Source of the DNA: a virus
IMG/VR virus record: IMGVR_UViG_3300009164_000237
Location: 1-30,284 of that record
DNA: 30,284 nt
Reading direction: 5' to 3' (one strand)
Part shown: piece after piece, positions 2,461-30,284 of the stretch
Numbering within the stretch: the first letter of the stretch is position 1
Layout of the letters: each line of letters begins with the position of its first letter
Notes under the pieces: generated by a model
The model's input: the letters and a program-made list of their open reading frames with translations, nothing else
Told to the model about the DNA's origin: nothing
Database searches by the model: none
Translations under genes and position numbers: made by a program

Positions 2461-2492
2461 CCCCCAGTAGTTTGCATCTTATTAAATATAGG

Positions 2493-7054: not shown

Positions 7055-7091
7055 AACTTTATTAAATATATCTTTTACTTATCGCACCATT

Positions 7092-19704: not shown

Positions 19705-20025
19705 TTAATCTAAGCGTGAGCCTGCGTAGGCTTTCAATCCCAACTGTGTCAAGTACTCTGCGTAAGCGTAAGCACCAGCTTCCTTTACGCTTACGCTTTG
19801 CGTAGGTACCCCAGCTGGATCCCACATGCTCAAGCACTTGGGCTTGTAGTCCTTCTTAAAGCCCGCCTTGATCAGCTCCTGTGCCTGCTTGCTGTTGGTG
19901 CGGTCCACATATACCTCTACCCAACCAAAGCCACAAGCGTCACGCTCGCCTACTCGTTGGTACATGGCTTGTCCCGCTTGCTCTGCAAGTGCCTTACCGC
20001 TACGGATCTGTTCTGCTGTAATCAT
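19705..20025 (-). CDS. Unknown 106-aa early protein
   Basis: A leftward protein starting MITAEQIRSGKALAEQAGQA, then DACGFGWVEVYVDRTNSKQA, KAGFKKDYKPKCLSMWDPAG and an Ala/Tyr-rich helical end. The helix-strand-helix order suggests a compact alpha/beta domain. It has its own promoter (20054-20082), an AAGGAGC ribosome binding site and a terminator. The first residues (MITAE) match the start of the protein at 20338-20574. No family was recognised. Confidence 0.75.
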   Translation of the reverse strand: MITAEQIRSGKALAEQAGQAMYQRVGERDACGFGWVEVYVDRTNSKQAQELIKAGFKKDYKPKCLSMWDPAGVPTQSVSVKEAGAYAYAEYLTQLGLKAYAGSRLD

Positions 20026-20053
20026 TCTCTGCTCCTTAAGTGTTTAAGTGTAT

Positions 20054-20082
20054 AGTATAAGCTCAGTCCTAGCCTTTGTCAA
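20054..20082 (-). promoter_or_regulatory. Early promoter 1
   Basis: Leftward TTGACA (20077-20082), 17 bp, TATACT (20054-20059); drives the 19705-20025 gene. The upstream gene's TGA (20079-20081) lies in the -35. Confidence 0.85.
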
Positions 20083-20273
20083 GCAAAGATTTCCTTGCTT
20101 AGGATCTTGTCCTCTACTAACTGGTTACATGAGTTAAGGGTAAACATGAACACTAGGTTAGCATTGGCTTGCTCTTTAGTGGGCAACTGGGCAATGAAGC
20201 TTTGGATCTCTGCGAGACTTGGGCTAGTGAACAAATTGCTTTTGGGGATGGGGTTCTCGACTACATTGTACAT
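20079..20273 (-). CDS. Unknown 64-aa early protein
   Basis: A small leftward protein (LAEIQSFIAQLPTKEQANAN, then VFMFTLNSCNQLVEDKIL) with its own promoter at 20301. GGAGC lies before the ATG and its TGA is inside the -35 of the next promoter. Function unknown. Confidence 0.65.
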   Translation of the reverse strand: MYNVVENPIPKSNLFTSPSLAEIQSFIAQLPTKEQANANLVFMFTLNSCNQLVEDKILSKEIFA

Positions 20274-20300
20274 ATCAGCTCCTTTAGTGTTCTAGTGTAT

Positions 20301-20329
20301 AGTATAACGTCACTTGACCGTTTTGTCAA
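20301..20329 (-). promoter_or_regulatory. Early promoter 2, with duplicated -35
   Basis: Leftward TTGACA (20324-20329), 17 bp, TATACT (20301-20306). A second TTGACA at 20336-20341 sits in a 12-bp tandem copy (TTGACAAAACGG) and contains the upstream TGA. Confidence 0.85.
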
Positions 20330-20337
20330 CCGTTTTG

Positions 20338-20574
20338 TCAATAGTCTGCTTTGACTGAGCCGTTGCCGGAGTCGTATGTGAGGAACACCTTAGTTGAATC
20401 AGTGCCACCCTCTACATGAAACACCACCCAGTAGCAGAACTGTCCCGCATTGGTAATGCCCAGGAACTTTGCACTAGTGAACACGTCACCCTTGTGGCCT
20501 GCCAAGTTGATAGCACGGGTCAATGCACCCGCTGTGAACGTGGTCAAGGTCTCCAGTCGTTCTGCTGTGATCAT
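20338..20574 (-). CDS. Unknown 78-aa early protein
   Basis: Starts MITAERLETLTTFTAGALT; the second half is beta-rich (FCYWVVFHVEGGTDSTKVFL). Its ATG overlaps the stop of the upstream gene (ATGA), and it is third in the unit from 21042. The TGA lies in the upstream copy of the -35 of promoter 2. No family recognised. Confidence 0.7.
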   Translation of the reverse strand: MITAERLETLTTFTAGALTRAINLAGHKGDVFTSAKFLGITNAGQFCYWVVFHVEGGTDSTKVFLTYDSGNGSVKADY

Positions 20575-20816
20575 GCCAGCACCACTACCTTTCTCACGTC
20601 TGCTCGGTAGTCGCCTGTGTCTTCATCATAGCAGTCTTCATCATCCACCATCTTGTCCATGCGGTGGTAGTCGCTGAACTCCACAACACCTTCACTCACT
20701 TGACTCACACTTGGAGCCACTTCAGTTCTCCAGTGGTCTCCATAGTTGTAGCTGTAATGCACAACTGCATTGGGATCCATGTAACCCAACTGCTCTATAA
20801 GTTCTTGTACGGTCAT
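20571..20816 (-). CDS. Unknown 81-aa acidic early protein
   Basis: Begins MTVQELIEQLGYMDPNAVVH, a pattern common in small phage proteins, and has a very acidic stretch (MDKMVDDEDCYDEDTGDYR) before a hydrophobic end. Second in its unit, 10 nt after the upstream gene with a GGAGC site. Function unknown. Confidence 0.7.
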   Translation of the reverse strand: MTVQELIEQLGYMDPNAVVHYSYNYGDHWRTEVAPSVSQVSEGVVEFSDYHRMDKMVDDEDCYDEDTGDYRADVRKVVVLA

Positions 20817-20826
20817 TTAGTGCTCC

Positions 20827-21042
20827 TTACTTGACAATGACAAAGTCTAATGCTGACAAATTTTGCACTGCTTGTGCGATCAATTTGGGGAGATCTTCCA
20901 CAATGCAGTCCCCTGAAGTGTATACTGCATTCTTGCTGTTGACTCGTTGTGTAGTGTTGAACGCTACATAAAAGCGAGCGCAATCTCGTGCGTGTTTGTT
21001 GGGGCTACGTACTACGCGGACTTGTGCTGTGCTTGTTTGCAT
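20827..21042 (-). CDS. Unknown 71-aa early protein
   Basis: A basic N-terminus with RVVRSPNKHARDC, then strands (CARFYVAFNTTQRV) and a helical end (LPKLIAQAVQNL). First gene of a three-gene unit behind promoter 3. Function unknown. Confidence 0.7.
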   Translation of the reverse strand: MQTSTAQVRVVRSPNKHARDCARFYVAFNTTQRVNSKNAVYTSGDCIVEDLPKLIAQAVQNLSALDFVIVK

Positions 21043-21071
21043 TTGTTACTCCATTTGTTTAGTGTGTATAC

Positions 21072-21100
21072 AGTATAGCGCAGGTCCTAGCCTTTGTCAA
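21072..21100 (-). promoter_or_regulatory. Early promoter 3
   Basis: Leftward TTGACA (21095-21100), 17 bp, TATACT (21072-21077). The upstream gene's TGA (21097-21099) is inside the -35. Confidence 0.85.
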
Positions 21101-21360
21101 CCAATTTCTTTAAAATATACCACTTTGATTGTGCCCTTTGCGCGGTCTTCTACGAACACGTATTCTGCACTTTCTTCAAAGTTAGCACGGGGATCGCTAA
21201 GGACCTTTTTAGCTAGGATCTTGACACTGCGCACACTCACAGCACCCTGCCAGTCTTCGCGTGGCACGCCTTCGTTGTAGCTGTACTTGCCCTTGCATCC
21301 GCACATGCAACCGATCTTGCCCGAATATACTTTGGCTATGTTTCCGATGTTTACTGACAT
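21097..21360 (-). CDS. Unknown 87-aa early protein with Cys cluster
   Basis: Contains VYSGKIGCMCGCKGKYSYN, with three closely spaced cysteines (C-x-C-x-C) that could bind metal, followed by an alpha/beta half ending VVYFKEIG. Single-gene unit behind promoter 4. Function unknown. Confidence 0.7.
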   Translation of the reverse strand: MSVNIGNIAKVYSGKIGCMCGCKGKYSYNEGVPREDWQGAVSVRSVKILAKKVLSDPRANFEESAEYVFVEDRAKGTIKVVYFKEIG

Positions 21361-21389
21361 TGTTTGCTCCGTTTGTTTAGTGTGTTAAC

Positions 21390-21418
21390 AGTATACGTTC
21401 ACTTGTGGGTTTTGTCAA
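21390..21418 (-). promoter_or_regulatory. Early promoter 4
   Basis: Leftward TTGACA (21413-21418), 17 bp, TATACT (21390-21395). The upstream gene's TGA (21415-21417) is inside the -35. Confidence 0.85.
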
Positions 21419-21639
21419 CCAAAAGCATTGTATAACCCTACGAACCCTATGGCCAATGCCACTACATTGACTGTGAACTGAGGCAGGTTCCTTACTCGTA
21501 TGGTCCATGCTAGGAACAGCACCGTACCCAAAAACGCCGCTACAATGTTGTAGGGATAGGCACTGGGACCCATAGCGTTGAGTACGTGCATGGCAATAAT
21601 GGCCACAGCACCCGACCACTGAAGTATGCTGTTAAGCAT
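21415..21639 (-). CDS. Small membrane protein with about three TM segments
   Basis: A 74-aa protein with three hydrophobic segments (WSGAVAIIAMHVL, IVAAFLGTVLFLAW, VNVVALAIGFVGLY) joined by short turns with basic residues (RVRNLPQ). The ATG at 21639 is preferred over upstream in-frame ATGs because GAGGAATG precedes it and it overlaps the upstream stop by only 8 nt. It probably inserts in the inner membrane; the role is unknown. Confidence 0.7.
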   Translation of the reverse strand: MLNSILQWSGAVAIIAMHVLNAMGPSAYPYNIVAAFLGTVLFLAWTIRVRNLPQFTVNVVALAIGFVGLYNAFG

Positions 21640-22030
21640 CTGCACATTCCTCATAAACAGCGGCCACGTGGGCTGGGTCCAAACGAGCAAGCCCTGTGAT
21701 AAACGCGGCCCCTACATCCAAGCTCACATAGTTGTTTGTTTGCATACCTTGTTCGCTGTAGCTTACGTCGTTAGCTTCAGCTTCAGAGAAGCCAATTGTT
21801 TGCAAGTATGCACGGAGCTCCTGCAGGAACAATTTGTCTGTGTATATAAGTCCGTCTGTTTCAACGTCCCACTCGTTTGCTGAGAAGTCGTCTTGTGCAA
21901 AATACACGCACAACTCGCCAAAGTCTTGCTCGTCGTTAATGTACTGTAGGTCCAATTTGACTATGTCCACAGCCGCCGCTGTGCGGCTCCAATAGCCCAT
22001 ACCATTTGTGTGTAGTGTTGTGAAAATCAT
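21632..22030 (-). CDS. Unknown 132-aa acidic early protein
   Basis: Starts MIFTTLHTNGMGYWSRTAAA and is acidic throughout (DLQYINDEQDFGELCVYFAQ, then EWDVETDGL). A helical C-terminus ends EECADA. First of a two-gene unit with the membrane protein gene behind promoter 5. Function unknown. Confidence 0.7.
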   Translation of the reverse strand: MIFTTLHTNGMGYWSRTAAAVDIVKLDLQYINDEQDFGELCVYFAQDDFSANEWDVETDGLIYTDKLFLQELRAYLQTIGFSEAEANDVSYSEQGMQTNNYVSLDVGAAFITGLARLDPAHVAAVYEECADA

Positions 22031-22061
22031 TTACTGCTCCGTTTGTTTAGTGTAAGTGTGT

Positions 22062-22090
22062 ATTATAGCGCGGGTCTTGCCATTTGTCAA
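22062..22090 (-). promoter_or_regulatory. Early promoter 5
   Basis: Leftward TTGACA (22085-22090), 17 bp, TATAAT (22062-22067): full consensus. Confidence 0.87.
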
Positions 22091-22099
22091 GTGCTATGT

Positions 22100-22126
22100 A
22101 GAGACCCTGTTGTTAGTAGGGTCTCT
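22100..22126 (-). terminator. Hairpin after the 22134 gene
   Basis: AGAGACCCT / AGGGTCTCT, 9-bp perfect stem with a 9-nt loop. The minus-strand side lacks a T-run; the plus-strand side has TTACTTTTT. It separates the 22134-22418 gene from promoter 5. Confidence 0.6.
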
Positions 22127-22133
22127 TTACTTT

Positions 22134-22418
22134 TTATGCAATGTCTGCTATAATACGCAAATATGCAACCATATATTTTCGTTCGTAGCCGCCAGTTTGT
22201 CTGCGTGTTACACCTGTTATAGTAACTTTATTACTAATAACTTTTTGCAGTTGTTCTTGTGTTTTATATGCTTCTTGCAAATCGTTAAACAAAAAAACTA
22301 CGCTACGTCTTTTGTGTGTTTTATCACGTTTAATTGTTTTGTCCGTGTACGTTTGTGCAAAAAAACTATTGCTAATTAAACGCACTATTGCGCGGACTTG
22401 CTTTGTGTTTGCTAACAT
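22134..22418 (-). CDS. Unknown 94-aa basic early protein
   Basis: A basic protein (TIKRDKTHKRRSVVFLFND, then GVTRRQTGGYERKYMVAY) with strand-helix alternation, pI clearly high, so nucleic acid binding is possible. Single-gene unit behind promoter 6. More AT-rich than its neighbours. Function unknown. Confidence 0.7.
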   Translation of the reverse strand: MLANTKQVRAIVRLISNSFFAQTYTDKTIKRDKTHKRRSVVFLFNDLQEAYKTQEQLQKVISNKVTITGVTRRQTGGYERKYMVAYLRIIADIA

Positions 22419-22446
22419 TTTAGCTCCTTTTCCTTAGTGTGTAAAC

Positions 22447-22475
22447 AGTATAGCAGAGCTTCTCCAAAATGTCAA
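22447..22475 (-). promoter_or_regulatory. Early promoter 6
   Basis: Leftward TTGACA (22470-22475), 17 bp, TATACT (22447-22452). Confidence 0.87.
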
Positions 22476-22485
22476 GCACAAAGTA

Positions 22486-22514
22486 GAATACCCAACCGTT
22501 TTAGTTGGGTATTC
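22486..22514 (-). terminator. Strong hairpin terminator-like element
   Basis: GAATACCCAAC / GTTGGGTATTC, 11-bp perfect stem, 7-nt loop. The minus-strand tail is TACTTTG. It ends the transcript of the 22616 gene just before promoter 6. Confidence 0.7.
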
Positions 22515-22615
22515 CTTGAATAGGTGAGGGGCCAACTCTCCCGAGTCCCCCTCTGGTTGCGGCCGCGAACTTGCTACTAGGGACACTACCCCCCGGCTCG
22601 GACCTGGAGCAAACT
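22515..22615 (-). other. GC-rich structured 3' region or small RNA
   Basis: No gene fits. A nested hairpin is visible: GAGGGG / CCCCTC (22526-22531 and 22548-22553) enclosing ACTC / GAGT around TCCC. A near-palindrome around GCGGCCGC follows at about 22556-22571. It lies between the 22616 stop and the hairpin terminator, so it is a structured 3' UTR or a processed small RNA. Confidence 0.45.
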
Positions 22616-22891
22616 TTAGGCCACCAGCTCTAACATATTGGCTGGGACCTTGTATCCACCCATTGGGGTGTCTACAATAATATTCTTAATGGCGATCTTG
22701 CGTACTGTGCCCTGGATCACCTGACCACTACGGCTGGAGGTGAACTGGACCTTGCTACCAATGCGAACACTGTACTTGGTCTTCTGTGCTACACGGGCAC
22801 GGGCAAACTTAACAGCGTCAATCATTGACGAGAGTTCGTCGTTGGTAAATGTACCCTGGATGATCGCTGTGTTGATTTGACTTACGTTCAT
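22616..22891 (-). CDS. Small KOW/SH3-like protein
   Basis: A 91-aa protein: a helical start (DELSSMIDAVKFARARVAQK) and a C-terminal barrel-like part (IGSKVQFTSSRSGQVIQGTV, then IIVDTPMGGYKVPANMLE) with the Gly/Lys pattern of KOW or SH3-like domains that bind RNA or protein. It has its own promoter (22922-22950). Confidence 0.7.
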   Translation of the reverse strand: MNVSQINTAIIQGTFTNDELSSMIDAVKFARARVAQKTKYSVRIGSKVQFTSSRSGQVIQGTVRKIAIKNIIVDTPMGGYKVPANMLELVA

Positions 22892-22921
22892 TCTATCGCT
22901 CCTGTGTGTTAATGTTCTTAC

Positions 22922-22950
22922 AGTATACTACCACTCCTGGCCGTTGTCAA
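22922..22950 (-). promoter_or_regulatory. Early promoter 7
   Basis: Leftward TTGACA (22945-22950), 17 bp, TATACT (22922-22927). The upstream gene's TGA (22947-22949) is inside the -35. Confidence 0.85.
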
Positions 22951-23168
22951 CTGTTGATTGTGGCAAACGGATCCATTTCTTCTTTGACAAACGGATACTT
23001 GGTAAGGTCCAAGATGCCACCCATGTCGTCGTTGGAGAGGCCATGCTGTGTGTGCCAAGCTTCAACCATCTCGATAGGAATGTCCAACTCCTTAGCAATT
23101 GCTGGAGAGCTCATGCCCTCGCATACCAGTAGCTCAATATTCCAATCTAGTTCTGCCATTTTACTCAT
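22947..23168 (-). CDS. Small HTH-like protein
   Basis: A 73-aa protein with a possible helix-turn-helix (EGMSSPAIAKELDIPIEMV, then WHTQHGL). This resembles DNA-binding helices of small repressors and sigma-like factors. The start at 23168 has AAAGGAAAA upstream and overlaps the upstream gene by 8 nt, which argues against the earlier in-frame start at 23204. Third in the unit from 23507. Confidence 0.6.
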   Translation of the reverse strand: MSKMAELDWNIELLVCEGMSSPAIAKELDIPIEMVEAWHTQHGLSNDDMGGILDLTKYPFVKEEMDPFATINS

Positions 23169-23322
23169 TTGATTTTCCTTTAAGAGTTCTTGCGCCATTT
23201 GCAAAGATGATTAAACCTAATACACTGAAGAAGACCACTGAACTAGCACTGGCTGAGCTAGGAGTGAAGAACGCCATAATCCCCACAAGGATCAAGCCAA
23301 AAGCCATTTGGAAGGGAGCCAT
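23161..23322 (-). CDS. Small two-TM membrane protein
   Basis: A 53-aa gene with two hydrophobic segments (FGLILVGIMAFFTP and VVFFSVLGLIIFA) and a basic tail. It shares a TAATG overlap with the gene upstream and an 8-nt overlap with the gene downstream, which together support translation. Probably an inner-membrane protein. Confidence 0.7.
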   Translation of the reverse strand: MAPFQMAFGLILVGIMAFFTPSSASASSVVFFSVLGLIIFANGARTLKGKSNE

Positions 23323-23507
23323 TATTCAGCGTCCTTTGCATAGCTGGTGCCAATAGTCAGCATGGCCATACCCACCAGGGCAAATGCCGCAAGGTACACC
23401 CCTTCCATGCTAGCAAGGTCTTGGCACTGTTCAATGCCACCCACTGTGCCCAACAGCATGAGCATGCCAGTTGAGAGAAAGAAGAAAGACTTGTTAATGT
23501 TTGTCAT
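23322..23507 (-). CDS. Small two-TM membrane protein
   Basis: A 61-aa protein with two hydrophobic segments (FFFLSTGMLMLLGTVGG and VYLAAFALVGMAMLTIG) separated by a polar turn with a cysteine. First of a three-gene unit behind promoter 8, with GGAGC before the ATG. It sits beside another two-TM gene, so they may work as a pair in the membrane. Confidence 0.75.
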   Translation of the reverse strand: MTNINKSFFFLSTGMLMLLGTVGGIEQCQDLASMEGVYLAAFALVGMAMLTIGTSYAKDAE

Positions 23508-23539
23508 TTATAGCTCCGTTTGTTTAGTGTCTAGTGTAT

Positions 23540-23568
23540 AGTATAACATCACTCTTAATCAAAGTCAA
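23540..23568 (-). promoter_or_regulatory. Early promoter 8
   Basis: Leftward TTGACT (23563-23568), 17 bp, TATACT (23540-23545); its -35 is in the last codons of the upstream gene. Confidence 0.8.
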
Positions 23569-23737
23569 CCACCCATTTGGTGCCAGTGAACTCTGCTCTA
23601 CATGAGTTGCCTGTGATGTAAGGGTGACTCACGATGGCATAAGGACGATCATAGCCGTCGATCTTGAGGCTTTGCACTTCAACTTCTTTGACACCGTCGT
23701 CTGTGCCGTAGCCTGAATTGATAACGTGTACTTGCAT
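23555..23737 (-). CDS. Unknown 60-aa early protein
   Basis: A beta-rich small protein (MQVHVINSGYGTDDGVKEVE, then RPYAIVSHPYITGNSC) ending WVVDFD. Single-gene unit behind promoter 9. Function unknown. Confidence 0.65.
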   Translation of the reverse strand: MQVHVINSGYGTDDGVKEVEVQSLKIDGYDRPYAIVSHPYITGNSCRAEFTGTKWVVDFD

Positions 23738-23769
23738 TTGTTGCTCCTGTTTTGCTAGTGTATGTGTAT

Positions 23770-23798
23770 ATTATACTGCCAACCCACACAGTTGTCAA
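23770..23798 (-). promoter_or_regulatory. Early promoter 9
   Basis: Leftward TTGACA (23793-23798), 17 bp, TATAAT (23770-23775): full consensus. Confidence 0.87.
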
Positions 23799-23833
23799 CC
23801 AAAAAGACAGGATGTTGTTTTTACGCAACACCC
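23799..23833 (-). terminator. Rho-independent terminator
   Basis: On the minus strand GGGTGTTG / CAACATCC (8 bp, one G-U) then TGTCTTTTTGG. It ends the unit of the 24319 gene, 24129 gene, tRNA and 23840 gene. Confidence 0.8.
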
Positions 23834-23839
23834 TTGACT

Positions 23840-24028
23840 TTATGCTTTGCTGGGAATATACTCTAAGTCTTGGACATGAGGTCGACAGTCCCATCCCATA
23901 TGAGTGTTCAAGTCCCGGCACATCTCTATACCGCCTTGTTCAGCTTCTAGGAATGTGTCGTAAACGCATCCATATATCACTTCACCGTCATCTTTCTCCG
24001 CAATAGCTAAGAATACATTCTTAATCAT
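23840..24028 (-). CDS. Unknown 62-aa early protein
   Basis: A compact protein (MIKNVFLAIAEKDDGEVIYG start; middle EQGGIEMCRDLNTH) with strand-helix pattern, resembling in layout the protein at 24129. Last gene of the unit that contains the tRNA. Function unknown. Confidence 0.7.
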   Translation of the reverse strand: MIKNVFLAIAEKDDGEVIYGCVYDTFLEAEQGGIEMCRDLNTHMGWDCRPHVQDLEYIPSKA

Positions 24029-24043
24029 TGTGTTCCTTGTTAA

Positions 24044-24122
24044 TGGTGGGCCACCCGTGAGTCGAACACGGCACCAATGGATTATGAGTCCACTGCTCTA
24101 ACCAAGCATGAGCTAGCGGCCC
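24044..24122 (-). tRNA. tRNA with CAT anticodon, probably tRNA-Ile2
   Basis: The cloverleaf can be written out: acceptor GGGCCGC / GTGGCCC (one G-U), D-arm GCTC / GAGC, anticodon stem GTGGA / TCCAT with loop CTCATAA (anticodon CAT), T-arm CCGTG-TTCGACT-CACGG, discriminator A, and encoded CCA (24044-24046). The TTAGAGCAG...ACTCATAATC...TTGGT layout resembles E. coli tRNA-Ile2, in which C34 is converted to lysidine to read AUA; elongator Met cannot be excluded. It is transcribed between two protein genes in one leftward unit. Confidence 0.9.
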
Positions 24123-24128
24123 GTAAAC

Positions 24129-24317
24129 CTATTTAACTGTCTCGACTACCTGGAGGTCGCCATTGTCATCTTCTCGATAGATAACGCACTCGGCGATATC
24201 ATCTCCAATGTTGACTAGTGCGATCTCTTTGGCTTCCTTAAGAGACTTCGTCGTTTCAACTAAATCTTCTGAGCCGTCTTTAGCAACGGCCCAGACCTCG
24301 TACAATTCCCAAGTCAT
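24129..24317 (-). CDS. Unknown 62-aa acidic early protein
   Basis: A compact alpha/beta protein (MTWELYEVWAVAKDGSEDLV, helix SLKEAKEIALVNIGDD, strand AECVIYRED). Its ATG lies 1 nt after the upstream stop, so translation is coupled to the 24319 gene. Function unknown. Confidence 0.7.
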   Translation of the reverse strand: MTWELYEVWAVAKDGSEDLVETTKSLKEAKEIALVNIGDDIAECVIYREDDNGDLQVVETVK

Positions 24318-24318
24318 A

Positions 24319-24678
24319 TTAGAAAGGAGCGTCTTCGTCCTCGGTGACCTTAACAGCTTTGGCCTTTGTAGGAGCCTTAACAGCTACAGCTTTCTTAGTT
24401 GCTGTGGGAGCGGACTCTGGCTTACGCTTAGGGGTATTGCGATCAATGTACTCAGCGATGGTGGCTTGAGCAATCACGTCCTGGAACTCGTCCAGCTTGG
24501 CCATTGCAACTACAGCTTCCATCTTGGGCAAGGGAGCATCAAGCTCTGCCAAACGAATGTCTTCGTGACCGCCTTTGGACAGTACTTTGATACGCATGAT
24601 GTCGTTGGCGAAACGAACCTTGTACTCGCCTTCGCGCTTGGAAATTCCTACTACTAGATATTGTTTATCTGTTGCCAT
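24319..24678 (-). CDS. Small protein with an SSB-like acidic C-terminal tip
   Basis: A 119-aa protein: an N-terminal beta-rich part (QYLVVGISKREGEYKVRFAN), a helical middle, then a Lys/Ala/Pro-rich linker and the tip TEDEDAPF. That ending resembles the DDDIPF tip of bacterial SSB, which recruits many repair and replication enzymes. The N-terminal half does not look like an OB-fold SSB by eye. It heads the unit with the tRNA, behind promoter 10 and a 5' hairpin. It may compete for SSB partners, but that is inference. Confidence 0.75.
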   Translation of the reverse strand: MATDKQYLVVGISKREGEYKVRFANDIMRIKVLSKGGHEDIRLAELDAPLPKMEAVVAMAKLDEFQDVIAQATIAEYIDRNTPKRKPESAPTATKKAVAVKAPTKAKAVKVTEDEDAPF

Positions 24679-24708
24679 TGTGTGCCTCTGTGTTTAAAGT
24701 TTAAAAGT

Positions 24709-24727
24709 ATACGACACCTCGTCGTAT
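24709..24727 (-). promoter_or_regulatory. 5'-terminal mRNA hairpin
   Basis: ATACGAC / GTCGTAT 7-bp stem with a 5-nt loop, beginning at the predicted transcription start of the 24319 mRNA (about 24727). It may protect the mRNA 5' end. Not seen after the other early promoters. Confidence 0.55.
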
Positions 24728-24733
24728 GCATTA

Positions 24734-24762
24734 ATTGTACTACTGTTTGGTTCGATTGTCAA
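24734..24762 (-). promoter_or_regulatory. Early promoter 10
   Basis: Leftward TTGACA (24757-24762), 17 bp, TACAAT (24734-24739), inside the 3' end of the upstream gene. Confidence 0.8.
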
Positions 24763-25006
24763 CCATTTTCTTTAACTTTTGGTCAACTTTCTTTACCGTT
24801 TTGAACTCTTTCTTCACATAATAATCGATAAGTTCATTTCGGATCATTATGGTTAAATCGTATCCGATATCAGCAGGACATATGAATCGAACTGGGCATG
24901 AACCCCATCCGCCATATTGCATGAATTCGTGATACCATCTACGGTGTTCTTTGTTCGATGGATTGAACGCTACCAGCGGTCTAGCATAAAATTCAAGTTT
25001 ACTCAT
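24740..25006 (-). CDS. Unknown 88-aa basic early protein
   Basis: A protein with EFYARPLVAFNPSNKEHRRW, an FMQYGGWGSCPVRF segment and a Lys-rich C-terminus (KKEFKTVKKVDQKLKKM). It is the last of a four-gene unit, overlaps the 24999 gene by 8 nt, and its 3' end holds promoter 10. Function unknown. Confidence 0.7.
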   Translation of the reverse strand: MSKLEFYARPLVAFNPSNKEHRRWYHEFMQYGGWGSCPVRFICPADIGYDLTIMIRNELIDYYVKKEFKTVKKVDQKLKKMVDNRTKQ

Positions 25007-25136
25007 GGCCTTTCACCGCCCATAGACGCACGATGGCCTCCAGTTCTTTCCATTGGTAGTTGGGCTGTTTGGGCCGCACCCGCAGGAGTTCCTTCTTATC
25101 ATGCTCCGTGTTCTTCTCGCGATTAGTTTTTGTCAT
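24999..25136 (-). CDS. Small 45-aa basic protein
   Basis: A 45-codon gene with ATG at 25136 preceded by GAGGAAGAAG; the ATG at 25187 would lie deep inside the upstream gene and is rejected. The protein is charged (MTKTNREKNTEHDKKELL) and ends with a helix (ELEAIVRLWAV). It overlaps neighbours on both sides (14 and 8 nt). Function unknown. Confidence 0.6.
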   Translation of the reverse strand: MTKTNREKNTEHDKKELLRVRPKQPNYQWKELEAIVRLWAVKGHE

Positions 25137-25710
25137 TTTCTTCTTCCTCTTGTTTGTTTTCTTCTTCCCACATGGCAACATCTTCACTGATGTTGAACAT
25201 CTCGTCTAACGCACTAGGCAGTTCTTCAGCAATCTGCTCTGCGTTCAATCCACCGTAATCGTAGTAGTCGTCGTGACCATCTTCGTAAATGCCAGCAAAG
25301 GCCATGCCTGGTTCGTAGTAATAAGCACGGATGGTAAAGCCCAAAGCCTCCAACTTGTCGTAGGCTGCAAGCGGCGGAGCCCATGCACTGTCAAATGTAA
25401 GCGTCAAGCGTCCGTCTTCTTGGATTGGATCGCACCCGTCACCACCAATGTCCCACTTGGTGCCCCACTCGTTGACACAGTAATCATACCAGTTGCCGTA
25501 GCCGTAAACCTCTATATTGCGGGCTGTGTCCTCTTCGAGCTTCTTCTGCTCTACTGGATCACCCACGCACCCGGCTACAATATGCAACTCCTTAGGCACG
25601 GGAATGAATTCATTCAAGAATTCTGCACGATTAAAGGCATCGCGAGCTCGTTCAATCATTGCTGGATCTTCGTGGGCCAGCTCGACCACATTGTTACACC
25701 AATTAGGCAT
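25123..25710 (-). CDS. Api92-like / ferredoxin-like-fold phage protein
   Basis: A 195-aa protein starting with MPNWCNNVVEL, the hallmark of the Api92-like family found in phages and mobile elements (ferredoxin-like domain of unknown function). ERARDAFNRAEFLNEFIPVP, GNWYDYCVNEWGTKWD and LTFDSAWAPPLAAYDKLEAL are further typical blocks. The tail is strongly acidic (SEDVAMWEEENKQEEEEND). Second in the unit behind promoter 11, with a shared TAATG upstream. The function in infection is unknown. Confidence 0.8.
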   Translation of the reverse strand: MPNWCNNVVELAHEDPAMIERARDAFNRAEFLNEFIPVPKELHIVAGCVGDPVEQKKLEEDTARNIEVYGYGNWYDYCVNEWGTKWDIGGDGCDPIQEDGRLTLTFDSAWAPPLAAYDKLEALGFTIRAYYYEPGMAFAGIYEDGHDDYYDYGGLNAEQIAEELPSALDEMFNISEDVAMWEEENKQEEEENDKN

Positions 25711-25979
25711 TATGCAATCTCCGTTTCGTATTCGTAAAAGGTTACTGATGGATCCAACTTCTTCAACTGTTTGGCCGCTGTCATCAACTCTCGGTAACGG
25801 CGATTAACTTCTGTGCGGCTCAACTCACCATCGCATGTGAGGTTCTCTGGACTCAGGGCACTGTCAATCATGTTGGCCAGTGCTTGGCGGTCTTTGGCAG
25901 TAGTGAGGCTAAACTGCGGGCCTTTGAAGAAACTATTCCAATGATTCTTCTGTGCTACAAAGTTCTGTAGTGCTTTCAT
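25710..25979 (-). CDS. Unknown 89-aa helical early protein
   Basis: First gene of the promoter 11 unit. Almost all helix (MKALQNFVAQKNHWNSFFKG, then DRQALANMIDSALS and RYRELMTAAKQL). Its stop shares TAATG with the Api92-like gene. Function unknown. Confidence 0.7.
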   Translation of the reverse strand: MKALQNFVAQKNHWNSFFKGPQFSLTTAKDRQALANMIDSALSPENLTCDGELSRTEVNRRYRELMTAAKQLKKLDPSVTFYEYETEIA

Positions 25980-26009
25980 CTATCGCTCCTTTTGTTTAAC
26001 TTAACCTAT

Positions 26010-26038
26010 AGTATAGTGTCACTCCAAACCTTTGTCAA
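26010..26038 (-). promoter_or_regulatory. Early promoter 11
   Basis: Leftward TTGACA (26033-26038), 17 bp, TATACT (26010-26015). The upstream gene's TGA (26035-26037) is inside the -35. Confidence 0.85.
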
Positions 26039-26193
26039 TTGGTTTTTGGATAGACCACACGAAGTTTAGGGTTATTACGGACCACTGTTCGCCACCGCCA
26101 CTTGGCTTGCGTATAAGCCCTACGGCTAAGGGTGAACTTGGGGTCTTGCTCCTTAGCCCATATCACAAAGTTCAACTGCTCTACGGGGCTCAT
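26035..26193 (-). CDS. Small 52-aa basic protein
   Basis: A 52-codon leftward gene with ATGA overlap to the upstream gene. The protein is Trp/Arg-rich and basic (FVIWAKEQDPKFTLSRRAYT, then KWRWRTVVRNNPKLRVVYPK), possibly nucleic-acid binding. Its TGA is inside the -35 of promoter 11. The frame is open and linked on both sides, which supports it as real. Confidence 0.7.
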   Translation of the reverse strand: MSPVEQLNFVIWAKEQDPKFTLSRRAYTQAKWRWRTVVRNNPKLRVVYPKTN

Positions 26194-26393
26194 ACTGCTT
26201 CCTTGGGGGCGAACATCTTGCGGCCCGCCTGCATGAACATGTTGTAAGCCACGCGGTCTTCTTTGTCCAAGTCATCATAGCAGGCTTCCATTTCTTTCAA
26301 ACCCGCTAGGATGTCTCCGCCTGTGTTATTCTGTGCATACTCTTGCACCAGCTCACATGCCTCGCCCAACTCCATGTATAAGGGTGTTCCCAT
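26190..26393 (-). CDS. Unknown 67-aa acidic early protein
   Basis: A helical acidic protein (YMELGEACELVQEYAQNNTG, then EACYDDLDKEDRVAY) with a GGAGC-type site upstream and promoter 12. Overlaps the next gene by 4 nt. Function unknown. Confidence 0.7.
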   Translation of the reverse strand: MGTPLYMELGEACELVQEYAQNNTGGDILAGLKEMEACYDDLDKEDRVAYNMFMQAGRKMFAPKEAV

Positions 26394-26422
26394 TTACTTG
26401 CTCCTTTAGTGTTTAAGTGTAT

Positions 26423-26451
26423 AGTATAGCACAACTCAACCAATTTGTCAA
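26423..26451 (-). promoter_or_regulatory. Early promoter 12
   Basis: Leftward TTGACA (26446-26451), 17 bp, TATACT (26423-26428). The upstream gene's TGA (26448-26450) is inside the -35. Confidence 0.85.
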
Positions 26452-26660
26452 TCGGCCCAGCATTCCGTGGCCAAGCGTGTGGTTATTGTTTCACCACCAA
26501 TGTAGTCGCCTGAGAAACCGTGCTTGTTCTCCAGCACAAGAGCCACACCCGCATAGGTCTTCTTGATCTCTATGATCTGGGCCCATTGCTCAATGTCGCA
26601 TTTGAATGCCACGTTGTCGCCTACCTTAACTTCAACGTCATGTACCATGCATGTCTTCAT
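26448..26660 (-). CDS. Small KOW/SH3-like protein
   Basis: A 70-aa beta-barrel-like protein: VEVKVGDNVAFKC, AQIIEIKKTYAGVALVLENK, and a C-terminal IGGETITTRLATECW. The VGD and lysine pattern resembles small SH3-like RNA- or protein-binding modules. Single-gene unit behind promoter 13. Function unknown. Confidence 0.65.
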   Translation of the reverse strand: MKTCMVHDVEVKVGDNVAFKCDIEQWAQIIEIKKTYAGVALVLENKHGFSGDYIGGETITTRLATECWAD

Positions 26661-26688
26661 CGCTCGCTCCTTTAGTGTTTAAGTGTAT

Positions 26689-26717
26689 AGTATAGCACCA
26701 CTCCTCACTCTTGTCAA
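26689..26717 (-). promoter_or_regulatory. Early promoter 13
   Basis: Leftward TTGACA (26712-26717), 17 bp, TATACT (26689-26694), directly after the T-run of the terminator at 26720. Confidence 0.87.
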
Positions 26718-26719
26718 CC

Positions 26720-26752
26720 AAAAAAAAGCCCCAGGGAGCGAATCCGGGGCTT
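26720..26752 (-). terminator. Rho-independent terminator of the AAA+ gene
   Basis: AAGCCCC / GGGGCTT 7-bp stem (26726-26732 and 26746-26752), extended by two G-C pairs inside, followed on the minus strand by a run of Ts. A second hairpin AAACTCC / GGAGTTT at 26756-26773 precedes it. Confidence 0.88.
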
Positions 26753-26806
26753 CCAAAACTCCAAGCGGAGTTTCTAATGTAGGGTCAGGTATCCTGGGAG
26801 CGAATC
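26734..26806. repeat. Two copies of GGGAGCGAATC
   Basis: 11-bp direct repeats at 26734-26744 (in the terminator loop) and 26796-26806 (just before the AAA+ stop on the minus strand), 62 bp apart. Confidence 0.5.
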
Positions 26807-26808
26807 AG

Positions 26809-27687
26809 TTAACCGCGACGCATACATGTCATTGATGCTACACTTTCCCAACGATCGGGGAAGCTGGCCTTTAGATCAGCCAGTTTGAGCACCATACGTA
26901 GGCTGAGTTCTCTCAGCTTCTTCTTATTTGTTTCAATAAACGTTAACAGCTCTTGTACCGCACCCGCTTCGAAGTCATACTTGTCCAGCATGCCATCTTC
27001 TACAATCTGTTTAATGCGCAACACCTTCTCTCGCTCTGTGTCGATAGTAAGGTCAAGGTAGTGACAGCGTGACTCCAAAGCCTCAAGGTGATCCTTAAGC
27101 TTCTTGCTCTTCACATGTTCAAACTTGATGTTGGTGATAAAGATAGCGCCGCCTTTGAACTCAAAGCTGTTGGGCACACCTTCTGAGCGTAGGAGACGTG
27201 AGTCCGTGTTCCAATGGATCATGCGCTTGTTACCGCTGTCCAAAGCAGCTTTCAAAATATTAAGGCTCAAGTCATCCAACAGCACTGAGTCACAGTCATC
27301 AAACACTAGTATACACTTCTTGTCTGAGAACTCATAGAGCTTGCTGTACAAGCCCAGCGCACTCATAGCACCCTTGACCACTTCGTACTTCTTCAGCTTG
27401 CTGTCATTGGCCACATCAGCCAAGAGGTCATGCTTGCCCAGCACCCGCTCTACACCAAAGCTCTTGCCCACACCTGGAGGGCCAGTTACAATCATACTAC
27501 GTACCTTGCCGGCCTTGACTGCTTTAGTCATGTCGTCAAGTACTGTAAAACGTTCACGCAGACGAGCTTTGATCTCGTCATCAGTCTCATTGAGGTTCTT
27601 CTCAATGGCTTCCATCTCAAGAGTCTTTGTTTCCACTTTGTTCTTTGTCATGCCCGCTAACATTTCCATTGTCATTACTTTAGCCAT
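26809..27687 (-). CDS. AAA+ ATPase
   Basis: A 292-aa ATPase with one AAA+ module: Walker A GPPGVGKS (residues 69-76), Walker B ILVFDDCD (126-133), a sensor-1-like IFITN near 190-194, and a helical lid (LRELSLRMVLKLADLKASFP) near the end. The N-terminal 60 residues form a helical lead. Such single AAA+ proteins are common in large phages and often remodel protein or nucleic acid complexes; the target here is unknown. It has its own promoter 14, a site with GGAG, and a strong terminator. Largest gene of the early region. Confidence 0.85.
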   Translation of the reverse strand: MAKVMTMEMLAGMTKNKVETKTLEMEAIEKNLNETDDEIKARLRERFTVLDDMTKAVKAGKVRSMIVTGPPGVGKSFGVERVLGKHDLLADVANDSKLKKYEVVKGAMSALGLYSKLYEFSDKKCILVFDDCDSVLLDDLSLNILKAALDSGNKRMIHWNTDSRLLRSEGVPNSFEFKGGAIFITNIKFEHVKSKKLKDHLEALESRCHYLDLTIDTEREKVLRIKQIVEDGMLDKYDFEAGAVQELLTFIETNKKKLRELSLRMVLKLADLKASFPDRWESVASMTCMRRG

Positions 27688-27716
27688 CTTGTCGCTCCAC
27701 GCTAAGTTAAAAATTA

Positions 27717-27745
27717 ATTATAACACAAGGACATGTCTTTGTCAA
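27717..27745 (-). promoter_or_regulatory. Early promoter 14
   Basis: Leftward TTGACA (27740-27745), 17 bp, TATAAT (27717-27722): full consensus. The upstream gene's TGA (27742-27744) is inside the -35. Confidence 0.87.
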
Positions 27746-27885
27746 TAGTTTTCCATTAGACTTTTGACATTGCCCTGACCATATTGGGCACCCAGTTGGG
27801 CTTCCGCTTCCCAACGAGTGCTTGCCTGTACAGTTACAGAGATGAGGTTACCCCCAGCCCATACCACTGCTCGCCATACTTGCAT
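27742..27885 (-). CDS. Small 47-aa protein
   Basis: A 47-codon gene whose ATG shares TAATG with the upstream stop and whose TGA lies in the -35 of promoter 14. The protein begins MQVWRAVVWAGGNLISVTVQ, then a helix WEAEAQLGAQYG, short alpha/beta. Function unknown. Confidence 0.65.
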   Translation of the reverse strand: MQVWRAVVWAGGNLISVTVQASTRWEAEAQLGAQYGQGNVKSLMENY

Positions 27886-28316
27886 TATACTTCCACCGTT
27901 TCTGCACAGAACTCCAACATCTCTGCCACAGTACCATCAAAGATCTTTTCGTTGATGTCGCTTTGTGTGAGGCCAAAGAAGTTGCACCCGCGGTTCGTAA
28001 TGCCCACTCGCAACTCCATATCCTTTTGGTAAACATGGTACTCGTAGTCTTGTCCGCAGTCCACAGCTGATGGTGGGTACAAGTAAAAGCCGCCAGCATC
28101 GCTTTTGAAGTTGGCCACTAGTTGAGCAGCCAAACAGCCCATGCCGTTTGCAACCTTGCGTGTCTCTCTAGTGCTCAATCCGTTTACCATTGTGAACGGG
28201 GCGAGGAACTCCGCAAGCTCTGCACCGTGACCCGTAGGGTAGCCGTCATATTGACGGTACATGTTGATGATGACGTCTTGCTCGTCGTATACAAAAGTCA
28301 GTGATCGTGTTCCCAT
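27885..28316 (-). CDS. Conserved-looking phage protein starting MGTRSLTFVY
   Basis: A 143-aa protein with MGTRSLTFVYDEQDVIINMY, MYRQYDGYPTGHGAELAEFL and a block GGFYLYPPSAVDCGQDYEYH. The MGTR(S)LT start and R-Q-Y-D-G-Y-P-T-G-H-G segment recur in uncharacterised phage and bacterial proteins. First of a two-gene unit behind promoter 15. Function unknown. Confidence 0.75.
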   Translation of the reverse strand: MGTRSLTFVYDEQDVIINMYRQYDGYPTGHGAELAEFLAPFTMVNGLSTRETRKVANGMGCLAAQLVANFKSDAGGFYLYPPSAVDCGQDYEYHVYQKDMELRVGITNRGCNFFGLTQSDINEKIFDGTVAEMLEFCAETVEV

Positions 28317-28345
28317 TTATAGCTCCATTTGTTTAGTGTGTATAC

Positions 28346-28374
28346 AGTATAGCACCTCTCAGTGCCTTTGTCAA
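28346..28374 (-). promoter_or_regulatory. Early promoter 15
   Basis: Leftward TTGACA (28369-28374), 17 bp, TATACT (28346-28351). Confidence 0.87.
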
Positions 28375-28377
28375 GTA

Positions 28378-28676
28378 AAAGGGAACCATTGTGCATCTAT
28401 ATCTACTTATAAGAACGTCTCTTATAAGCCTGCACGGTCATTACTTCCTACATGCTCCGCCGCATCTCCAGAGCTCACGCTCCTATTTCATGACCTGGAC
28501 TCGACCAACACCCGTCGGCATTGTCATCTTCCCAGAGCCCTAACGGTGTAGGTAACCCTAATTCGTTTGCTTAGGCAGAGTCTACAAACTCTCTCCGTGT
28601 CCCTTGGTTCCAACCCTTTTTGCATTTCTGCGTGGGTTCTTACATTCGAGGACCGCCTTGCTTTCTTTCTAACTTG
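28378..28676 (-). ncRNA. Candidate structured non-coding RNA, about 300 nt
   Basis: A 300-nt region without a leftward protein gene, behind its own TTGACA-17-TACAAT promoter and ending with a short T-run before promoter 15. Pairings seen by eye on the transcript: a 7-bp closing helix GGAACCA / TGGTTCC (28605-28611 with 28382-28388); AACCC / GGGTT enclosing GCA-GAAA-TGC (28612-28638); AGAGT / ACTCT (28577-28592); ACACCGT / ACGGGTGT with one bulge (28508-28515 with 28543-28549); a junction closed by GGTCAT / ATGACC (28436-28441 with 28490-28495) holding GAGC-GTGA-GCTC and ATGC / GCAT; and GTGCA / TGCAC enclosing CTTATAAG x2 (28391-28435). GAAA and GTGA loops are GNRA-type. No known RNA class was matched; function unknown. 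Confidence 0.6.
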
Positions 28677-28681
28677 TTCTT

Positions 28682-28710
28682 ATTGTAGCTTCACTTCTTG
28701 TACTTGTCAA
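28682..28710 (-). promoter_or_regulatory. Early promoter 16, for the candidate RNA
   Basis: Leftward TTGACA (28705-28710), 17 bp, TACAAT (28682-28687). It lies over the 3' end of the 28691 gene and reads into the gene-free region. No GGAG leader follows. Confidence 0.82.
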
Positions 28711-28957
28711 GCACCCCGCGAATAACCACATTCGCTTCCTGGGTACCTACTAGTTCCATGCGAGCTTCAATCTCTAGCTCACGAGCCAGTACCTTAAGTT
28801 CGAGGCTATAAGCATCCAACAGCTCTTGAGCATAGACCTTGTCGTCTTCATCAGACTGATCCCAAAAGGCTTGGAAGTCATCGCCTTTGGTGTTGAGCAA
28901 GAAGTTCAGGTTGTCCCTGTCCCAGTCGTTTGTTATCAATCCCATTTTGGTTTGCAT
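28691..28957 (-). CDS. Unknown 88-aa acidic helical early protein
   Basis: Predicted almost all helix (DDFQAFWDQSDEDDKVYAQE, then LARELEIEARMELVG). Second gene of the promoter 17 unit, 9 nt after the 28967 gene. Its last codons hold the -35 of promoter 16. Function unknown. Confidence 0.7.
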   Translation of the reverse strand: MQTKMGLITNDWDRDNLNFLLNTKGDDFQAFWDQSDEDDKVYAQELLDAYSLELKVLARELEIEARMELVGTQEANVVIRGVLDKYKK

Positions 28958-28966
28958 GTGAGTTCC

Positions 28967-29194
28967 TTAGTCCAGTAGAGTCATGTATGCTTCAGGGTTC
29001 GCACGGCTAAACCAATCCAGCGCACGGCGCAGACCAGTGTAGTCACCCATCAGCTCGCAGCCTTTGAGGTAGTCGTACACTGCCACTTCTTCTGGACTGA
29101 GTACAGCGGACTCGCCGCTAAAGGGATTCTTCACTGCCACAGGCTCCGTGTCGTACACTTGGATTCCGGGGAAAAGCTGTTTGATAGTTTTCAT
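28967..29194 (-). CDS. Unknown 75-aa early protein
   Basis: A small protein with KNPFSGESAVLSPEEVAVYD and a helix GLRRALDWFSRANPEAYM. The L-S-P-E-E-x-A-V-Y-D pattern appears in uncharacterised small phage proteins. First gene behind promoter 17. Function unknown. Confidence 0.7.
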   Translation of the reverse strand: MKTIKQLFPGIQVYDTEPVAVKNPFSGESAVLSPEEVAVYDYLKGCELMGDYTGLRRALDWFSRANPEAYMTLLD

Positions 29195-29226
29195 TAGGTT
29201 CGCTCCTTTTGTTTAACTTAGCCTAT

Positions 29227-29255
29227 AGTATAGCACCGGTCTAGCCGTTTGTCAA
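29227..29255 (-). promoter_or_regulatory. Early promoter 17
   Basis: Leftward TTGACA (29250-29255), 17 bp, TATACT (29227-29232), starting 5 bp after the upstream stop. Confidence 0.86.
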
Positions 29256-29259
29256 GCAA

Positions 29260-29475
29260 TCAATCTAAAGCCACACCCTTGTCCTGGACTTTGCCTTCCC
29301 AGTGTGCCTTAGTCACGCACAGGGCTCTGATCTTACCGCCTGTGACAATGGGCTTGTCCTGTACAGTTTTCAAGCTCTGTTGACACGTGACACGATCCTT
29401 CTGTACGATGCCATGCTTGCCCATGAAGTCACCACCCGGGCTTAGGAACGCCAGGATCAGGATGTACTCAGTCAT
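29260..29475 (-). CDS. Small protein with hydrophobic N-terminus
   Basis: A 71-aa protein starting MTEYILILAFLSPGG, a possible signal or membrane anchor, then a basic/polar part with two cysteines (TCQQSLKTVQ and ALCVTKAHWEG). The ATG at 29475 overlaps the upstream stop by 8 nt and is preferred to 29490. It could be exported or periplasmic. Function unknown. Confidence 0.65.
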   Translation of the reverse strand: MTEYILILAFLSPGGDFMGKHGIVQKDRVTCQQSLKTVQDKPIVTGGKIRALCVTKAHWEGKVQDKGVALD

Positions 29476-29683
29476 CGTAGGCCTCTTCACCCATTTCGGT
29501 TACTGTTTCGGTTGTAATACCCAAGTCGATGATTCGGGCTGTTTGATCTGCATTGCTGACACCTTGGAAGGCTCCGCGGAACGATTGGTTCTCTGCTAGG
29601 AAGTCGTATACATCATACCGATCCCACGACTCAGGCACCATCAGCTCTTGGTATAGCTCTGTACGCACGATCACCTTCTTCAT
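29468..29683 (-). CDS. Unknown 71-aa acidic early protein
   Basis: The start at 29683 (MKKVIVRTELYQELMVPESW) is chosen for its AAAGGAGC site; an ATG at 29740 would overlap the 54-aa upstream gene. Helical middle (YDVYDFLAENQSF), acidic end (EMGEEAYDD). Function unknown. Confidence 0.65.
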   Translation of the reverse strand: MKKVIVRTELYQELMVPESWDRYDVYDFLAENQSFRGAFQGVSNADQTARIIDLGITTETVTEMGEEAYDD

Positions 29684-29720
29684 ACCTTGCTCCTTTAGTT
29701 TATCGTTCGCACTCGTTTTC

Positions 29721-29885
29721 TTACTTTGAAATCCCGTCATGTTGCACCTCTATTTTAAGATTGGACAAGATAGCTTCCAGCATATCGTATGCCATTTGGA
29801 ACCTATCACCTTCGATGTTATATATCTGGTTGGTGGCATCCTCTAGGGTTGCAATAGCCTCCAAGACCTTATAGTCCTTAATCAT
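29721..29885 (-). CDS. Small 54-aa protein
   Basis: A 54-codon leftward gene with ATGA overlap to the upstream stop. The protein is helical (MIKDYKVLEAIATLEDATNQ, then FQMAYDMLEAILSNL). Frame and overlaps support it. Function unknown. Confidence 0.65.
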   Translation of the reverse strand: MIKDYKVLEAIATLEDATNQIYNIEGDRFQMAYDMLEAILSNLKIEVQHDGISK

Positions 29886-30284
29886 GCTACCTCCTTCACA
29901 CGGATTACGAAGCCACTGTAATCTTTCTTAGCACGACCCTTGGCCTTAAGACCAAGCATCACGCCCTTAGGGTCTAAGAAGCGAAGGTCTGTCTCATCCG
30001 CACTAGGCACACCCGCTGGGATCTGATCGTACACTGCTACCACGCTCATGCCTTGCATTAATGCTTCTGCTACATCAGCATCGTTACCATCAGCCTTGCT
30101 GAACGTCAAGTGGTAGTTGGGGATATGCTTGACCTTACGGCCCAATACCTTAGTGTAGTCATAGAACTGTACATTGGGGAACATCTCAAAGATGTTGTAG
30201 CCTTCGATGACTTCATACTTCTCCCAGCTAAGGTCACTCGTACCGTTTAAGCGGAACACGGGGGTCAAACCCTTGCGCTCTGCA
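29882..30284 (-). CDS. Conserved-looking phage/plasmid protein, 5' end off window
   Basis: At least 133 residues; the frame stays open to the window edge (…AERKGLTPVFRLNG), so the TTG at 30268 is probably internal. Blocks RLNGTSDLSWEKYEVI, NIFEMFPNVQFYDYTKVLGR and NYHLTFSKADGNDADVAEAL, then DETDLRFLDPKG and LKAKGRAKKD, match uncharacterised proteins common in phages and plasmids. Function unknown. It is the first visible gene of a leftward unit that runs to 29260. Confidence 0.75.
   Translation of the reverse strand, partial: AERKGLTPVFRLNGTSDLSWEKYEVIEGYNIFEMFPNVQFYDYTKVLGRKVKHIPNYHLTFSKADGNDADVAEALMQGMSVVAVYDQIPAGVPSADETDLRFLDPKGVMLGLKAKGRAKKDYSGFVIRVKEVA

Follow-up and report, generated by a model that had tools for sequence, protein, structure and literature searches.

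The roughly 300-nt gap at positions 28378-28676 on the leftward (minus) strand of the window, that is, of the whole 30,284-base virus record analysed, carries two modules, named here alpha and beta, which, judging from the changes that link paired positions among their homologues, are almost certainly real and conserved structured RNAs; the reading that we prefer, and to which we give a probability of about 60%, is that two independent RNA modules make up a non-coding transcription unit here, with alpha working in cis and beta as its stable product working in trans. A previous, sequence-only reading had proposed at this place one undescribed structured RNA, independently expressed; the promoter-driven structured RNA has stood up to comparison, its homologues displaying many compensatory changes and Rfam holding no match to it, whereas the single RNA of ~300 nt has given way to two separable modules.

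The gap separates the leftward genes 28957-28691 and 28316-27885 and, as had been noticed, contains no leftward protein gene: every ORF on its minus strand is shorter than 40 aa, and the plus-strand ORFs 28261-28551 and 28567-28725 are antisense to the conserved RNA. The consensus promoter attributed to the gap is likewise present, being a sigma70-type TTGACA-17-TACAAT (28682-28710, minus strand) with 11 of 12 consensus matches, from which a transcript start at about 28676-28675 is predicted; a promoter-like site occupies the equivalent relative place in most of the homologous loci. The gene after beta has a promoter of its own, TTGACA-17-TATACT (28346-28374, minus strand), which begins directly 3' of beta. 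The sigma70-type promoters and the gene neighbourhood are what suggests that expression is early; leftward promoter-like sites number 33 in 10 kb, against 13.6 expected. A terminator for the window transcript was looked for and none was found, and the transcript might continue into the 28316 gene.

Along the minus strand of window positions 20000-30284, near-perfect sigma70 promoters (TTGACA-17-TATAAT/TATACT) occur at almost one per early gene, and the sequence around the promoter of the post-beta gene (28330-28374) recurs at 21056-21100 and 22434-22455 (minus strand) with 84-95% identity; the sole tRNA of the window, a tRNA-Met(CAT), lies among the early genes at 24044-24122. Elsewhere in the window, a gene block (2472-7952), some genes of which run against the main direction, is inserted in the replication/recombination region and includes a glycosyltransferase family 8 match at 2472-3176.

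The folding energy of the region is unremarkable (z -1.45 for the whole minus strand, -1.33 for beta, and -1.16 for alpha), and the plus strand folds better than the minus strand (z -3.0). Since the energy of the single sequence is no better than that of many shuffles, pairings drawn by eye prove nothing by themselves, and the gap taken alone is an observation real yet weak; the proof is to be sought in the comparative evidence.

Relatives were reached through the proteins of the two flanking genes, which led to related IMG/VR contigs; L004 matches the gap over short collinear stretches, and L007, L009, and L010 have an RNA-like gap resembling it. IMG/VR was scanned with a beta motif (GGTTACCNANNCCGNTAGG followed by GTAATG) and with a second, independent motif; a sizeable fraction of the initial pattern matches were due to chance and were discarded by means of the second motif and of the model, and the counts from these exact-pattern scans are to be read as lower bounds. 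Requiring both motifs leaves at least about 90 distinct beta copies; overall, the homologues in IMG/VR contigs include at least 93 distinct aligned beta sequences and at least 38 distinct alpha sequences, alpha being found by pattern in at least 60 contigs. All members are metagenomic contigs, and copy numbers and absences can reflect fragments. The covariance model R1, built from 17 beta sequences with the window among them, gives, at E<=0.01, 59 matches among the initial 100 sources and 48 among the following 100; it scores the window beta, a training sequence, at 179.2 bits (E 2e-52), beta subfamilies outside its training mostly at E 1e-9 to 1e-22, and the L007 beta, also outside the training and with the same gene neighbourhood as the window, at E 7e-14. 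The model R3 scores the window alpha, again a training sequence, at 112.7 bits (E 2e-25); all these E-values are rough, the models being short-calibrated.

No match was obtained by blastn in INPHARED with the window region and members of three subfamilies, nor by blastn in PLSDB, and the scan of GTDB with the beta pattern returned one Omnitrophota contig, which R1 does not match and which is hence due to chance. In five cultured jumbo phages picked by nearest DnaB helicase (PA5oct, Ettore, Phosso, Atu_ph07, and Vibrio 2.275.O), the nearest cultured DnaB helicases being only ~51% identical, R1 and R2 gave nothing convincing, the best score being that of Atu_ph07 (13 bits, E 0.12). A description of these RNAs was not found in the open-access literature, to which the search was confined.

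Module beta (~189 nt; 28377-28565, minus strand), delimited by the R1 match and by covariation in the alignments A1 and A2, folds in the order terminal helix P1, core helix P2 enclosing the P3 domain and the P4 hairpin, P5 with its hairpin P5.1, and back to P1. A1 consists of 17 beta sequences aligned by MAFFT without structure, the structure itself being drawn from those sequences; its 57 pairs are formed in 92.1% of cells, against 36-44% in controls in which the partners are slid, 31 of them are changed on both sides, the covariation score is 0.423, and none of 500 shuffles was as good, save for the count of pair types (3/500). Shuffle controls are inflated by the kinship of the sequences, and greater weight is therefore put on the variety seen at each pair and on the slid controls. 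A2, which contains the 93 listed beta members aligned to the model, is, as the broad alignments in general, model-fitted, and the fitting favours the structure: 93.1% of cells are paired and 49 of the 57 pairs are changed on both sides. In column 30/150 of A2, UA is found 27 times, GC 26, CG 21, GU 11, and AU 5, and such a variety of pairs would be hard to obtain otherwise, despite the leaning of the alignment on the model.

The most conserved letters of beta, GGUUACC and GUAAUG, are located at the P1/P2/P5 junction; CA-GAA and the loop AGA-G are kept too. In GGUUACC (28551-28557, minus strand), GG is the inner end of P1, UUA belongs to the junction, and CC starts P2, with columns 10, 11, and 13-17 at least 95% identical among the 93 listed members; in GUAAUGA (28438-28444, minus strand), placed in the same junction, GUAAUG is at least 95% identical. 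A three-way-like junction had been drawn previously in the gap, and a junction does exist, but the real one joins P1, P2, and P5 of beta. Helix P2 (28447-28552, minus strand; 28552-28542 with 28461-28457 and 28452-28447), whose 5' strand follows the pattern CCNAN..CCRNU, covaries across subfamilies in A2 (column 20/292: CG 61, GC 21, AU 4, UA 3; column 24/273: GC 81, AU 11). In the same alignment, two-sided variation is observed in 8 of 9 outer and 5 of 5 inner pairs of the P3 domain (28492-28539, minus strand), the inner hairpin of which has a GACG-type loop, in all 6 scored pairs of the P4 hairpin (28468-28485, minus strand; GUGA loop at 28478-28475), and in all 16 pairs of the P5/P5.1 domain (28385-28438, minus strand; 28438-28431 with 28395-28391 and 28387-28385), within which the P5.1 hairpin pairs 28428-28421 with 28413-28406 around the loop AGACGUU (28420-28414).

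The terminal duplex P1 measures 19-32 bp (median 22) in 70 of 94 listed members; the window beta does not have the 3' strand of a long P1, because the next promoter starts right after beta, and its P1 score is low. The outer domains are swapped among members: the 3' domains of L084 and L089 are 100% identical, against 54% for their P3 domains, and 14 member pairs are alike in this respect. Such a combination, a near-invariant three-way junction around which the outer domains are freely exchanged, is what a working core should look like.

The length of beta ranges from 137 to 273 nt; its lengths fall in all three classes modulo 3 and the longest sense ORF has a median of 21 aa, which indicates that no ORF is conserved and that beta is not protein-coding. 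A short leader peptide starting at the conserved GUAAUG, with the upstream UAGG as ribosome site and a 12-codon ORF in the window, might be imagined, since UAGG(n2-3)GUAAUG resembles a ribosome site followed by a start and the AUG is nearly invariant; the UAGG, however, is the paired 3' strand of P2, and the frame differs from one member to another, running for 12 codons in the window and for 3 in L111 and staying open in L115; some members, L070 for example, read GUAAUAA. The idea is hardly credible, and a peptide from the conserved AUG was rejected on account of the differing frames and of the GUAAUAA.

Module alpha (about 96 nt; 28568-28663, minus strand), delimited by the R3 match and by the alignment A4, lies in the initial ~110 nt of the gap and is composed of four nested helices and a pseudoknot; the MFE fold of the window alpha corresponds to the A4 structure, pseudoknot aside. 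In A4, which comprises 23 distinct alpha sequences and 26 pairs, the pairs are formed in 99.5% of cells, and 7 of them, pseudoknot included, have two-sided changes. In helix a (28599-28653, minus strand; 28653-28649 with 28603-28599), A-U becomes G-C at 11/65 in 6 of the 23 sequences and U-G becomes U-A at 15/61; in helix b (28612-28638, minus strand; 28638-28634 with 28616-28612), A-U becomes G-C at 26/52, and U-A and U-G at 35/40. Helix b encloses the hairpin GCA-GAAA-UGC, the loop of which (28628-28625), together with the GUGA loop of beta, accounts for the GNRA-type loops previously spotted in the gap, both of which exist. In the helix d hairpin (28577-28592, minus strand; 28592-28588 with 28581-28577), C-G is replaced by A-U in 8 sequences and A-U by G-C in 2, and in the pseudoknot (28585-28606, minus strand; CAA 28606-28604 with UUG 28587-28585) columns 58/79 pass from C-G to U-A in 4 of 23.

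The 7-bp helix supposed to close the gap by joining its two ends (GGAACCA 28611-28605 with TGGTTCC 28388-28382) did not survive the comparison, since of 17 loci with alpha and beta in tandem it is perfect in only 4; the GGAACCA of alpha changes to GTAGCCA or GTAACTA without compensation, and both strands are engaged in other, covarying helices. A single RNA of ~300 nt closed in this way is, although the helix is present in the window MFE, extremely improbable, the more so as the modules occur apart: in L084 and L151 alpha stands immediately before ORFs with no beta present, and roughly one alpha in two is followed by a protein gene, indicating that alpha is not specific to beta, and beta is found without alpha, either preceded by a promoter of its own or within a tRNA array. 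Since they can occur separately, the two are separate functional units. Strongly diverged alphas are detected by R3 150-320 nt upstream of beta in the tRNA-array phages L085, L081, L098, L117, L251, and L163; that of L251 directly follows a TTGACA-17-TATAAT promoter, and the tandem promoter-alpha-beta is thus old. Between alpha and beta in L085 (L085:12936-13060) a hairpin-rich stretch (ACTCTGAG...CTCGGAGT closing; GACCCATG-TCAA-CATGGGTC) is possibly a third RNA; it matched nothing.

Of 24 large records, which range up to 383 kb, 21 contain exactly one R1 match for beta; among the 3 large records without beta, L113 had come in through a chance pattern match. Two different betas in tandem are found at L297:89-516, an exception to the single copy. 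Alpha matches once per record in 18 records and, more weakly, once in that of L098; its one copy per record ruled out that alpha serves early genes as a recurrent cis-leader. To judge from these contigs, both families are kept, usually in single copy, in many giant lake-type phages. For 65 of 93 listed members a promoter-like site precedes beta by 15-145 nt, against 8.4% of random positions (the loci being promoter-rich), and in 47 of 94 a tRNA lies within 700 nt of beta, usually with the tRNA start ~200 nt downstream of GGUUACC, right after beta. A permuted (two-piece) tmRNA is present in 13 of 14 large beta-carrying records (L111, L122, L142, L096, L090, L083, L132, L069, L075, L230, L221, L086, and L073); the beta-type tmRNA matches in L145 and L180 suggest betaproteobacteria as hosts.

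The downstream neighbour of beta varies (tRNAs including tRNA-Glu, various ORFs, promoters), and that of alpha is either beta or differing ORFs. Not being tied to one downstream gene, beta probably does not regulate a neighbour in cis; indeed, neither alpha nor beta precedes one class of gene, as riboswitches or cis-leaders do. The proposal that the RNA is the 5' leader (riboswitch or attenuator) of gene 28316-27885 draws on its location directly upstream of this gene and on the order gene-beta-gene in L007, L009, and L010; nevertheless the gene has its own promoter, beta is followed elsewhere by tRNA-Glu, other ORFs, or promoters, and no conserved expression platform is found, so that we regard the proposal as very improbable.

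With covariation observed in both beta and alpha, the covariance search against Rfam that had been suggested alongside it returned no family: none of the 4,227 families of Rfam 15 matches alpha or beta above the gathering threshold in the window or in ten whole loci, and at E<=10 no above-chance match falls on either module in the window or in four loci. Bacterial RNase P RNA resembles beta in being single copy and in having its ends closed by P1, and would suit a phage with a tRNA array, but its helix order is unlike that of beta, the CR-I and CR-V motifs are not seen in beta, and RF00010 at E<=1 matches 0 of 14 records, compared to 11 of 14 control genomes. The tmRNA (beta-type, permuted) is found in the same phages, is related to translation, and often belongs to the same tRNA array; it is, however, a separate gene, located elsewhere than beta in 13 of 14 records, and beta has no tRNA-like domain, no tag ORF, and no match to the tmRNA model. 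Retron ncRNAs recall beta in their complementary ends (like a1/a2) and their ~200 nt, whereas reverse transcriptase (RVT_1, PF00078) is absent from the 14 beta-carrying records searched, controls being positive, and beta does not qualify as a retron. The group I intron model RF00028 has no match on beta; TROVE (Ro60; PF05731) is found in 0 of 14 records (control positive), with no Rfam match to Y RNA or YrlA, and Cas12f1-like_TNB (PF07282; TnpB/Cas12f omega RNA) in 0 of 14 (controls positive). Membership of beta, in strongly diverged form, in a known class (RNase P RNA, tmRNA, group I intron, Y RNA, retron msr-msd, or TnpB/IscB guide RNA) would fit its single copy and tRNA-array site (RNase P, tmRNA, Y RNA), its terminal-repeat closing helix (retron), and its size, which is in range; given the Rfam result, the separate tmRNA, and the missing protein domains and motifs, we consider it most unlikely.

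ROOL and GOLLD are phage RNAs often found near tRNA islands, the function of which is not established (PMC12286853). Like beta, they are structured ncRNAs of phages and prophages; beta could by analogy be a small, abundant, RNA-only structural or scaffolding particle of this kind, devoid of catalysis and of a base-pairing target, as the shared habitat (phages, tRNA arrays), the single copy, the elaborate structure, and the swappable peripheral domains with GNRA/GACG-type loops would allow. However, beta measures 137-273 nt against ~660 nt for ROOL and >800 nt for GOLLD, a length 3-5 times shorter; it is unrelated to them in secondary structure and sequence and often has its own promoter, and the ROOL/GOLLD covariance models have no match on the ten whole loci; the analogy is accordingly given little credit.

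For alpha the closest parallel is the put RNA of phage HK022, which is ~70 nt long and closely follows an early promoter (PMC9378689). Alpha lies at the very 5' end of the predicted transcripts, and a -10-like site lies 13-25 nt before its start in 29 of the 38 listed distinct alphas, so that, like putL and putR, it is a compact folded RNA of similar size placed right after a phage early sigma70 promoter. The put RNAs have, on the other hand, two stem-loops and two copies per genome, compared to the ~95 nt, the four helices with pseudoknot, and the one copy of alpha, which does not show the two-stem-loop put architecture. HK022 put suppresses pausing and termination via the zinc-binding domain of the RNA polymerase beta' subunit; alpha is likened to it by position and size only, and a put-like action of alpha is a possibility that we would advance with caution. 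If extended to beta, the same precedent leads to a picture in which both modules are cis elements of the nascent RNA, modifying the polymerase for read-through of untranslated early or tRNA-array regions; the promoter-proximal position, the host-type promoters, and the untranslated transcripts are compatible with it, but beta also occurs inside tRNA arrays, far from any recognised promoter, the long terminal duplex closing beta is unlike a nascent-RNA tether, and there is one alpha per genome although early promoters are many. We consider this picture unlikely.

According to the preferred reading, of a cis-acting alpha and a trans-acting beta, the host sigma70 RNA polymerase would start at ~28675; alpha, transcribed first, would fold at the RNA exit and act in cis, either in a put-like manner on the polymerase or by protecting the 5' end, thereby helping the untranslated transcript to reach completion. 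The product would be beta, a compact and stable RNA that probably acts in trans, and the P1/P2/P5 junction, with GGUUACC and GUAAUGA, would be its putative active or binding site; where the 19-32-bp P1 exists, beta could be released from tRNA-array transcripts by RNase III-type processing of that duplex. Since beta is found in tRNA arrays, in phages which bring a tmRNA as well, there is a weak hint that it works with the translation or tRNA equipment of the phage, and a translation-linked role is accordingly put forward as a tentative suggestion. The fuller scheme, in which beta is a catalytic or trans-acting RNA of jumbo phages working on their own tRNA and translation set (tRNA maturation, quality control, or ribosome reprogramming may be examples) and is started by an RNA-polymerase-modifying alpha, is a good deal more speculative.

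To our knowledge, the classes of large structured ncRNAs in phages are few (ROOL, GOLLD), and those too are without established function. Two folded RNA families absent from Rfam, instead of a protein, occupy this early-gene gap, and they add to the list two families with strong covariation, present as a rule in one copy per genome, among uncultured giant phages equipped with tRNAs and a tmRNA, whose contigs reach 383 kb. The covariance models and the coordinates make both families directly testable: if beta is catalytic or related to translation, the short list of RNA machines would be extended, and an action of alpha on RNA polymerase would make it a new RNA antiterminator.
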